Shown here: positions 18,339 through 20,570 of the stretch, in pieces | Layout: each line of letters begins with the position of its first letter | Numbering within the stretch: position 1 is the first letter of the stretch | From: Actinokineospora enzanensis DSM 44649 | GTDB lineage: Bacteria > Actinomycetota > Actinomycetes > Mycobacteriales > Pseudonocardiaceae | Reading direction: 5' to 3' | Assembly (NCBI RefSeq): GCF_000374445.1 | Contig: NZ_KB894414.1 | Coordinates: forward strand, 62,001-126,000 | DNA length: 64,000 bases | Made by a program: the position numbers and the translations under genes | Notes under the pieces: model-generated | The model's input: only the letters and a program-made list of their open reading frames with translations | Told to the model about the DNA's origin: nothing | The model's database searches: none

Positions 18339-18725
18339 ATGACGGAGGAGCCCGCCAACACCTTCGACGCGTTCCGCCACGCCGAGTCACTGGTGGCCCA
18401 ACGCAGGCCGCTGGACGCCCTCGCGGCCCTCGGCCCCGTGCTCGACGCCGCCCCCGACGCCCCCAGCGTGCACCTGCTGGCAGGCCGCGCGTACCTCGGA
18501 TCCGCCCAGCTCCGCCGCGCCGAACAGGCGTTCCTGCGGGTGCTGGAGCTGGACCCCACGGACCACTACGCCCGCTTCGCGCTCGGCAAGACCCTGCAAC
18601 GGCAGAGTCGGCTCCCGGAAGCCCAGACCCAGCTGCGGATGGCCGTCGCGATGAACCCGCTGCCCGAGTACCAGGAAGCATTGGGCGAGGTCAACGCCCG
18701 AATGGCGGTCGAACGCGACCGGTAG
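18339..18725 (+). CDS. TPR-repeat protein
   Basis: A 128-residue cytoplasmic protein made of about three tetratricopeptide repeats: FRHAESLVAQRRPLDALAAL, then VHLLAGRAYLGSAQLRRAEQ and HYARFALGKTLQRQSRLPEA. These repeats mediate protein-protein contacts; the partner is unknown. ATG 18339 is only 10 bases after a TAGTGT -10-like hexamer, so the transcript may be leaderless. It is divergent from eno. Short TPR proteins of this kind are common beside eno in related genomes, but I cannot name a function. Confidence 0.8.
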   Translation: MTEEPANTFDAFRHAESLVAQRRPLDALAALGPVLDAAPDAPSVHLLAGRAYLGSAQLRRAEQAFLRVLELDPTDHYARFALGKTLQRQSRLPEAQTQLRMAVAMNPLPEYQEALGEVNARMAVERDR

Positions 18726-18821: not shown

Positions 18822-19076
18822 ATGAGCATCCAGGAGCAAGCCAACCAGCTCGCGGGCCTCGCCGACCGCGTGCCGACCGCCAACATCCAGCAGCTGAACA
18901 ACGACCTGTCCGACCTCGCGAACCAGGTCTCCAGCATCCTCGGCGAGACCACCAGCGCGAACTCCGTCCGCTCCATCCTCGGCCAGGCCCAGAGCGTCGT
19001 GAACGACCTGGGCGGCCTGCTCGAACAAGCCCGCACCGAGATCACCAACGCGGCCCACCACCACCTCAACGGTTGA
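18822..19076 (+). CDS. Small helical protein, first gene of the deaminase-toxin operon
   Basis: An 84-residue, almost entirely helical protein (MSIQEQANQLAGLADRVP, then QQLNNDLSDLANQVSSIL and SVVNDLGGLLEQARTEI). It has no WxG motif, signal peptide or cysteine, but its size and two-helix character resemble small ESX-type partners or chaperones. GGAGG directly abuts the ATG, with a better spaced TTGGAGA ten bases upstream. Its TGA overlaps the TTG start of the toxin gene (TTGA), so the two are translationally coupled. I infer a role as secretion partner or adaptor of the toxin; it could equally be a regulator. The family is not recognised. Confidence 0.7.
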   Translation: MSIQEQANQLAGLADRVPTANIQQLNNDLSDLANQVSSILGETTSANSVRSILGQAQSVVNDLGGLLEQARTEITNAAHHHLNG

Positions 19077-19741
19077 TCCCGCAGTCCGCCGACCGGCTAC
19101 GCGCCTTGGCCGTCCCGATCGCCGTGGCGAGATCCCTCACGGGGGAGATCGAGACGTGCGGTCAGGCAGTCGCGGAGCTGGTCGGCGAGCACGCGGTGGT
19201 GGGCACGTTCCGGGCGGCACTGGCTTGCGCGGAGCTGCTGGAGCGGGTGCTGGAGCAGTTGCGGACGGCACTCGACCAGGCCGCGGACCATCACGGCGCG
19301 GCGAGAACGGCAGCGTCTGCTGCCTCGGCGAATACCAGGGCCGCTCTACCGAAGCCACCTGCCCCAGGGAAAACACATGGTCGGTGGATCGATGGCCAGG
19401 GGCATACGGTCATCCTCACCAGCGGGCGAGGCAGCCAGTACTTCGATTCGGCGATCGCACGAGCCCGAGAGATCGGGCTCCCTCAGGGAAACACGACCGC
19501 CGAACCGGCCATCGTCCGGCATGTGGAAATACAGTTCGCCTGCCGGATGGCGGCAGAAGGGCTACGAGACGAAACCATCGAAATCAACCGGCGAGTGTGC
19601 GGGACCAGGTCGCGGGACCGGGATTGGCCGGAGACCTGCGATAAGCAGCTCCCCTATTTCCTACCGGAAGGTGCCAGGTTGACCGTGAAAGACGGCTCGT
19701 CCCCGCAGGGACGCGTCTATACAGGACGGAAACCAGAATGA
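19073..19741 (+). CDS. DddA-like (SCP1.201-like) DNA cytidine deaminase toxin
   Basis: Predicted polymorphic toxin that deaminates cytosine in DNA. Residues 1-95 are helical with no recognised domain; residues 100-222 form the deaminase. It begins THGRWIDGQGHTV and carries the zinc-ligand/catalytic pair as HVE (His150, Glu152), then INRRVCG (Cys176) and ETCDK (Cys189), followed by the family's LPEGARLTV and GRVYTG. Burkholderia DddA has the same HVE and a CxxC; here 12 residues separate the cysteines. TTG 19073 overlaps the previous stop (TTGA), and its own TGA overlaps the ATG of the immunity gene (ATGA). It lacks a large delivery domain such as Rhs. GC is lower than in neighbouring genes (about 63-65% in hand-counted lines). 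Family assignment is firm; activity is inferred. Confidence 0.82.
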   Translation: MIPQSADRLRALAVPIAVARSLTGEIETCGQAVAELVGEHAVVGTFRAALACAELLERVLEQLRTALDQAADHHGAARTAASAASANTRAALPKPPAPGKTHGRWIDGQGHTVILTSGRGSQYFDSAIARAREIGLPQGNTTAEPAIVRHVEIQFACRMAAEGLRDETIEINRRVCGTRSRDRDWPETCDKQLPYFLPEGARLTVKDGSSPQGRVYTGRKPE

Positions 19742-20160
19742 CTATCGAGGTCGGGTGGGATGTCGATCGAGCGGACGGCTTCTGCGAGGAAGTGGTCATG
19801 ACGCTCACCACCCCCGACGACGTGGCGGAGTTCGTGCGACGGCTAGCTGAGCCCGGCGCACTCCACACACGTGTCGTTCACCGGGGACGGCCGTGGTTCG
19901 AAGAGCGAGAAGGCTACTTCGATCATGCCGTCTACGCGGCGATCCATGGTGACTATGCGTACCTGAGCTATCAGGACTACGTGATCGGCAAGCACTATTC
20001 TGTCGGCAGCCCCGATTCTCCCGGCGCCGAGTACGACGACGACGACTTTCCGCCCGGCTCCGGGATCACCACCGACCAACTCACCGACGCCATCACGGAG
20101 TTCCTGGTGACCAGCGAGCGGCCCGGGTGCCTCGCCTGGAAGCCGGCGGCTTTCGCTTGA
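19738..20160 (+). CDS. Imm1-family immunity protein (first copy)
   Basis: A 140-residue cytoplasmic protein expected to neutralise the deaminase encoded just upstream. It shows the Imm1 pattern: an N-terminal strand (EVGWDVDRADG), a helix after TLTTPDDVAEFVRRL, the central HGDYAYLSYQDY strands, the acidic SPGAEYDDDDFPPGS loop and a final helix TDQLTDAITEFL. Imm1 proteins are the usual partners of SCP1.201-like deaminases in actinobacteria. ATG 19738 overlaps the toxin stop by 4 bp. A hand count of one 60-base line gives 55% GC, clearly below the genome. It is about half identical to the next gene. Confidence 0.8.
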   Translation: MTIEVGWDVDRADGFCEEVVMTLTTPDDVAEFVRRLAEPGALHTRVVHRGRPWFEEREGYFDHAVYAAIHGDYAYLSYQDYVIGKHYSVGSPDSPGAEYDDDDFPPGSGITTDQLTDAITEFLVTSERPGCLAWKPAAFA

Positions 20161-20570
20161 GAGCGGGTATCCAGGCTGGGTGGGGCATCGAGAATGCGGA
20201 TGGCGCGTTCTGCGGTGCAGGCATGCGACTCGTGTCTGCGGAGGACGTGGCCGCTCTTGTGCGACAACTGATCGAGCCGGGCACGACGGCCGCCTGGCTC
20301 GATCATCGAGATCGGCCGATGTGGGACGAGGCGAACGGGATCACCGACCACGACATGTTCGTCGCCGTCCACGGCGGCTACGGGTACATCAGCTTCCAGG
20401 ACTCGACGATCGGCAAGTGCTACTCGGTCGGCGCTTCGGAATCACCAGGGGTCGAGTACGACGATGACGAATTTCCGCCCGGCTCCGGCATCACCACCGA
20501 CCAGCTCACCGACGCCATCACCGAGTTCCTGGAGACCCGCGCCATCCCCACCTGCATCACCTGGCGCTAA
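20157..20570 (+). CDS. Imm1-family immunity protein (second, tandem copy)
   Basis: A 137-residue paralogue of the preceding gene. Matching blocks include GWGIENADGAF, EDVAALVRQLIEPG, HGGYGYISFQD, SPGVEYDDDEFPPGS and an identical GITTDQLTDAITEFL. TTG 20157 overlaps the previous TGA as TTGA, the third such overlap in the operon; an ATG at 20127 would give a longer frame lying inside the first copy. The start residues align with the N-terminus of copy one, which supports TTG. The repeat suggests tandem duplication followed by divergence, perhaps to cover a second toxin variant. It converges with the transglycosylase gene, overlapping it by 4 bp at the stops. Confidence 0.75.
   Translation: MRAGIQAGWGIENADGAFCGAGMRLVSAEDVAALVRQLIEPGTTAAWLDHRDRPMWDEANGITDHDMFVAVHGGYGYISFQDSTIGKCYSVGASESPGVEYDDDEFPPGSGITTDQLTDAITEFLETRAIPTCITWR

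Follow-up and report, generated by a model that had tools for sequence, protein, structure and literature searches.

A candidate two-part helical leader on a DddA-like deaminase toxin of Actinokineospora enzanensis

How do compact DddA-like deaminase toxins leave the cell that makes them? Short actinobacterial toxins of this kind are common, and the literature passages available to us are silent on their exit. The question is raised by an operon of four genes on the forward strand (positions 18822–20570) of the window, a 64,000-nucleotide stretch of contig NZ_KB894414.1 from the soil bacterium Actinokineospora enzanensis DSM 44649. The first gene (18822–19076) encodes a protein of 84 amino acids (aa) that we call alpha, the second (19073–19741, TTG start) encodes a 222 aa toxin, and two Imm1 immunity genes follow. 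As a preliminary description of the operon had remarked, the toxin has no delivery domain known to Pfam; no signal peptide is seen by eye. The N-terminal part of the toxin (beta; residues 1–86, 19073–19330) is a homologue of alpha, and the two occur in constant order, joined by a 4-bp overlap, ahead of several different toxin domains. That the pair is a recurring unit on several warheads is well supported. Its function we infer: the operon is, with moderate confidence, a polymorphic-toxin system in which the alpha/beta pair is the leader that carries the toxin to export. Searches of open-licence papers listed none with a title or abstract opening that describes this arrangement.

The proposed leader pair and its warheads

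The preliminary description took the first gene product for a helical protein of no recognised family. Alpha indeed matches neither Pfam nor NCBIfam models above cut-off and, modelled alone, is predicted as a hairpin (pLDDT 91) with helices at residues 3–15, 20–40 and 44–83 and a turn at 41–43. It is not unrelated to the toxin: alpha (P0002) aligns with toxin residues 2–74 at 30% identity (BLASTP 4e-8 in a single comparison), and an alpha-family profile, built on the fetched loci with P0002 as seed, matches the toxin front at 3.3e-13. Other DddA-like toxins are matched at their front by this profile too (26 frames, some loci counted twice). The proposal that the small protein is a candidate partner of the toxin was well judged. 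Throughout, alpha denotes the stand-alone form and beta the toxin-borne form in two-gene loci.

Many compact deaminases carry a second type of helical N-terminal domain; with one of these as the seed, a profile recovered 46 loci. Among 86 N-terminal stretches lacking an alpha-type match, 37 stayed unmatched by this second profile as well (some loci contribute two or three stretches). The alpha type and the second type align with an hhalign probability of 92.9% (3.8e-7), which falls to 1.8% with one side reversed; the reversal control of alpha against itself scores 47%, so helical profiles carry some built-in symmetry. The name DUF6244 was considered for the leader, with weak matches in 4/29 and 5/29 members (best 0.00093 and 0.00029), and was not adopted because the family itself, searched for in 16 genomes, never reaches cut-off (one weak match). 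A PDB search with the leader profile returned coiled-coil-like noise, at best 1.1e-5 to Syn-F4-Link.

An intact alpha followed by a beta-toxin is found at 11 loci in five genera: the window, L119 (genome G010), L115 (G013), L116 (contig 32 of the window's genome), L135 (G024), L173 (G015, its toxin cut short), L209 and L210 (both G129), L236 (G266), L238 (G452) and L239 (G465). The profile did not pick up the toxin fronts of L115 and L116; these were identified by inspection and from their position. A 4-bp NTGA overlap joins alpha to the toxin in all 11 (TTGA at 19073–19076 in the window, ATGA in L116). Nine of the warheads are DddA-like, one (L239) is CdiA_C (PF18451, 7.6e-10, above cut-off), and one (L238) is probably AHH/HNH, its match of 0.0004 lying just below cut-off. 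Two further cases are broken, L162 (G003) by a degraded toxin and L237 by a stop in alpha. Two weaker stand-alone alpha matches depart from the pattern: the frame that follows L214 at a distance of 78 nt is toxin-like and has no leader domain, and L215 has no recognised toxin. Loci L235, L240, L241 and L242, with a single match each, were fetched and lie outside the two-gene analysis.

The leader also occurs fused in single genes. Besides the DddA-like toxins, a set of six such fusions shares a C-terminal domain with the pattern HHAVEQ..LENLRG..HLS..WN.FY (L203 in the window's genome, L204, L206–L208 and the broken L170). The leader family thus sits on DddA, CdiA_C and AHH/HNH-like domains and on two unnamed toxin-like domains. 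Imm1 is next door at DddA-like loci, and the neighbours of the other warheads have no Pfam name (two scanned). One leader, several C-terminal toxins and an adjoining immunity gene, the signature of polymorphic toxins, are found together here.

Two observations concern the unnamed domains. Behind the HHAVEQ-type toxins a different neighbour gene, of ∼145 residues, recurs, and the members scanned have no Pfam match above cut-off; the domain and this neighbour are a candidate new toxin-immunity pair. The other domain (RKHTQ.A.IK..), with a neighbour gene of its own, is fused to the leader in L205 and stands behind the weak stand-alone alpha in L214.

Would such a toxin have to leave the cell at all? 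The deaminase might instead act in its own cell as part of a toxin-antitoxin or phage-defence unit, with alpha/beta as sensor or regulator and Imm1 as antitoxin. A very compact, tightly coupled operon whose proteins show neither a recognised delivery domain nor a visible signal peptide would suit such a unit. A leader shared by several warheads, CdiA_C among them, is a mark of delivered polymorphic toxins, and Imm1 is catalogued, in actinobacteria too, as an immunity family of SCP1.201 toxins in the portion of the survey consulted (PMC3482391). PADLOC gave no match for the toxin or Imm1 and only noise-level hits for P0002, although a missing library entry proves nothing. We regard an intracellular role as quite improbable.

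Trees of the two parts bear on how the leader came to its warheads. In a tree of 104 deaminase domains, seven of them from two-gene toxins, these seven need three changes relative to one-gene alpha-type toxins, and branches with good support make two of the changes unavoidable; the alignment has few columns, the bootstrap is unsettled, and L209 is too gappy to place. L119 and the window fall together with L128 and L138 (99/98), two loci of the second N-domain type without alpha. L210 groups with L112 and L139 (100/98), and L135 with L133 and L149 (99/85). The two-gene deaminases lie in separate toxin lineages, which suggests that one leader pair was joined to several cores and exchanged from toxin to toxin. 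The leader tree places beta on one side of a branch (92/99) and the one-gene fronts on another (77/74), with alpha between; alpha does not form one clade in the best tree, yet such a clade is not rejected (p-AU 0.24). Over the 11 pairs, alpha and beta distances correlate at r 0.49, a value reached in 118 of 20,000 permutations.

We propose that the C-terminal domain of the second gene product would be a DddA-class cytosine deaminase aimed at a competing cell. Alpha and beta probably pair into a four-helix bundle, made during coupled translation of the two frames, that would keep the deaminase and present the toxin to an exporter, most likely the genome's type VII system. Inside the competitor the deaminase would alter cytosines, and the two Imm1 proteins would shield the producer and its siblings.

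Possible export and the apparent independent life of alpha

Several results weigh against this proposal. Two-gene loci make up only 5 of 100 deaminase loci, so most such toxins can do without a separate alpha. The N-terminal hairpin of the toxin model (helices 2–39 and 42–86) has a pLDDT of only 53–68 over residues 1–80, and lower after. The beta group in the leader tree is not fully supported (its branch is not starred), and shared ancestry of the loci may account for the correlation of alpha and beta distances. Comparison with type VII substrates is likewise unfavourable. Alpha is predicted as a hairpin, and Esx chains tie with unrelated hairpins in fold score. The alpha-family profile, set against 30 WXG100 domains of relatives, scores 2.2% in hhalign, with reversed controls at 1.5–1.6%, and WXG100 was rejected by profile on this result. 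Alpha contains neither Y nor F and hence no YxxxD/E or FxxxD signal. Finally, alpha is found without a toxin beside it, so partnership with a toxin cannot be its sole role.

Type VII is nevertheless the favoured route because the window's genome has one EccB (6.9e-120) and WXG100 pairs on contigs 9 and 1, and because LXG toxins of Firmicutes require paired WXG100-like helpers, according to the abstract of one paper (PMC9600955; see also PMC12558993). By this analogy, we would guess that a type VII machine exports alpha and the beta-toxin. In a stricter version the pair is a true type VII substrate complex of the WXG100/LXG type. This fares poorly in the fold and profile comparisons just given, and neither alpha nor beta in the window contains a W; hmmscan lists no WXG100 match for alpha and no LXG domain for the toxin (P0001). 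We consider this version doubtful.

At the enolase–TPR site in which the operon lies, alpha also occurs without a toxin. Across all 16 genomes of the genus, the site holds alpha, toxin and two Imm1 genes in G000, alpha, toxin and one Imm1 in G010, and alpha, a broken toxin and Imm1 in G003. Alpha stands alone in five (G005, G006, G009, G012 and G015), and alpha, toxin and Imm1 are all missing in seven (G001, G002, G007, G008, G011, G013 and G014); in G004 the site ends at a contig end. Orphan alpha is under strong purifying selection, with a ratio of non-synonymous to synonymous substitution rates (dN/dS) of 0.06–0.09 for G009 against the other four (dS 0.58–0.80), below the 0.11–0.16 of TPR and 0.11–0.13 of enolase in the same pairs. 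For toxin-linked alpha the ratios are 1.06 (G000–G003), 0.54 (G003–G010) and 0.26 (G000–G010). All are Nei-Gojobori estimates over 84 codons from pairs that are not independent.

Beyond the genus, 69 of 390 genomes of the family have a leader match, and 49 of these belong to one genus, g16. Among the 46 g16 genomes with a match at E≤1e-15, 41 have exactly one. At the ten single-alpha g16 loci fetched no DddA or Imm1 match lies nearby; the median dN/dS there is 0.21 (range 0.07–0.60, 44 pairs). In four of five loci inspected, alpha is near genes that we take to be rseP and dxr, with ispG, by the same assumption, listed in two. Loci L230, L233, L234 and L245 show a single alpha in a common housekeeping-like neighbourhood with no DddA or Imm1 match nearby. 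Alpha therefore seems to exist in its own right as well. Within the genus of the window, alpha and one-gene alpha-type toxins co-occur (9 of 10 genomes with alpha, none of the other 6); this was set aside because the genomes are essentially one clade with two or three independent pairs (sign test p 1).

These data bring in another explanation, that alpha is an independent conserved gene behind which toxin and Imm1 were inserted and then coupled, and that it has no part in toxin action. The orphan copies in five of the 16 genomes, their strong conservation and the single copies of g16 all suit it. It is weakened because alpha ahead of a beta-toxin, joined by one kind of 4-bp overlap, recurs across five genera on differing warheads, and chance insertion is unlikely to bring a twin domain every time. 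We think this explanation unlikely. In a more specific and tentative form of the leader proposal, alpha and its twin beta may represent a new two-part leader class, unrelated by profile to WXG100, that can be exchanged between deaminase, CdiA_C and HNH-type warheads. Alpha would be, or derive from, a single-copy protein conserved in Pseudonocardiaceae that toxins copied as a docking part. Orphan alpha might then serve one-gene toxins in trans.

The deaminase, its immunity pair and the locus

Toxin residues 87–218 match PF14428 (hmmscan 3.3e-18, 66.3 bits against a cut-off of 25), so the DddA/SCP1.201 (BaDTF1) class assigned in the preliminary description stands. The domain (19331–19741) contains the HVE of residues 150–152, C176, C189 and LPEGARLTV that were pointed out there, with 12 residues between the cysteines. 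The solved structures nearest to the toxin model are those of DddA, including DddA bound to double-stranded DNA, and in the model H150 and E152 stand at the start of one helix (151–162) and C189 at the start of another (189–196). Neither outcome named in the preliminary description as refuting it, a missing family match or catalytic residues outside the active site, was thus observed. E152, C176 and C189 are invariant in an alignment of eight rows, and position 150 is H in four of them, the window's included, and D in four. The toxin thus has the family's HxE (DxE in some members) and the two zinc cysteines at the catalytic helices. Direct searches of the PDB with the toxin (phmmer) found no match; a profile of the eight rows found DddA at 0.0024 and 0.075 and TOD at ∼0.004, and a viral fold library gave nothing below E 0.001.

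Two features once thought peculiar are not special to this toxin. The cysteine gap, considered as a novelty, was rejected as one on a count of 104 PF14428 domains, of which 97, the window's included, have gaps of 2–15 residues and seven fall outside the pattern. A gap of five is commonest (43 domains), 12 occurs in six and two in one. Of the 97, 72 begin the motif with H, 24 with D and one with Y. The 12-residue gap is loop variation inside the family, and spacing does not define it. Compactness is likewise the rule, with a compact deaminase and Imm1 close behind at 97 of the 100 loci collected.

The substrate was presumed to be double-stranded DNA, and PF14428 membership permits no such inference. 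Single-stranded rather than double-stranded DNA is the target of many SCP1.201 proteins, and 45 of 76 tested members gave a single-strand reporter signal, according to the part consulted of a commentary on Huang et al. (PMC10847098). Activity on double-stranded DNA went with SPKK-like C-terminal motifs, as far as the available passage reports (PMC9935910), and the window's toxin ends in SPQG with no clear SPKK-type motif. Set against this are the structure matches to DddA on double-stranded DNA, which are also simply the solved members of the family. It is nearly an even chance that the domain's target is single-stranded DNA or RNA rather than double-stranded DNA.

The window's genome has two further DddA-like genes, L108 on contig 17, a short open frame of only 145 codons, and the two-gene locus L116. 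In L079 (G015, contig 16) leader and deaminase share one frame with a single TGA between them; the near-identical L074 is one open frame, and L079 is probably a decayed copy.

The two downstream proteins, Imm1 copy a (140 aa, 19738–20160, PF14430 3.9e-17) and copy b (137 aa, 20157–20570, TTG start, 4.9e-16), reach bit scores of 63.6 and 60.1 (cut-off 22.4) and are 54% identical, bearing out their description as paralogues. On these matches the assignment of toxin and immunity proteins to known families is sure. The copies were said to share an identical end; they do share an identical tract of 20 residues, FPPGSGITTDQLTDAITEFL (20047–20106 in copy a, 20472–20531 in copy b), which is not at the protein ends, where the last residues differ. 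At the DNA level, identity is 93% in the best 24-codon window and 0.51–0.72 in the remaining 19-codon blocks of the gene, and only one of 20,000 shuffles matched the tract on either measure. Codons are identical at 17 of 20 positions inside it and at 33 of the 52 shared residues outside, a modest contrast. In G010 and G003, with one Imm1 each at the same site, the proteins differ within the tract, which makes selection for the tract alone unlikely. The pattern fits gene conversion or a partial recent duplication, as read from the two sequences. At least two Imm1 matches lie downstream in 8 of the 100 deaminase loci, the window's included, and a duplicate Imm1 is uncommon but known in kind. L083 and L158 have three Imm1-type frames behind a DddA-like toxin.

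Direct reading places the four genes where the preliminary description had them and recovers its three 4-bp overlaps: besides that of alpha and toxin, ATGA between toxin and copy a (19738–19741) and TTGA between the copies (20157–20160). Translational coupling by these overlaps is well supported; the further statement that they lock stoichiometry is an extrapolation. In 500-base steps, the guanine-plus-cytosine content of the operon falls to 0.61–0.69, not to the 55–65% given before; adjoining stretches have 0.69–0.78, and 15.0–16.0 kb of the window is equally low (0.61–0.66). A promoter scan found none, and there are two terminator-like sites where 0.7 are expected. Upstream on the forward strand lies a TPR protein gene (18339–18725), and beyond it, on the reverse strand, what we take to be enolase. 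Downstream, on the reverse strand, are a lytic-transglycosylase-like gene (SLT match below cut-off), presumably a methyltransferase-like gene, and then a long gene of 1066 codons. A plasmid origin was rejected, the toxin having no tblastn match in 72,556 plasmid records.

Relation to known systems

The alpha/beta pair offers a concrete, testable handle on how DddA-like toxins leave the cell. The leader may explain the helical N-terminal stretch of ∼85 residues ahead of many PF14428 domains in our set, and its apparent exchange provides deaminase cores that nature has set on different leaders. Should alpha prove to be a core protein that toxins copied, this would add a new way in which toxin leaders arise.

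With DddA and other SCP1.201/BaDTF1 toxins (PF14428), the window's toxin shares the deaminase core, the HxE and two-cysteine zinc site, its C-terminal position and a linked immunity gene. It differs from DddA in lacking a delivery region known to Pfam, in cysteines 12 rather than two residues apart, in its Imm1, where DddA has an immunity protein of another kind, and in a helical leader that has a free-standing twin. Both immunity proteins of the window belong to the Imm1 family (PF14430) and stand out as a tandem pair with a gene-conversion-like tract. EsxA/EsxB and PE/PPE heterodimers also consist of two helical hairpins encoded together; unlike these, the window's pair has no WXG100 profile similarity, and one of its members bears a toxin domain. 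LXG toxins with Lap1/Lap2 of type VIIb, as portrayed in an abstract (PMC9600955), likewise combine a small helical protein of WXG100-like hairpin shape with a toxin whose N-terminal domain is helical. The window's actinobacterial system differs in having no LXG match, no FxxxD/YxxxD in alpha, and one helper, which is a homologue of the toxin's own leader.
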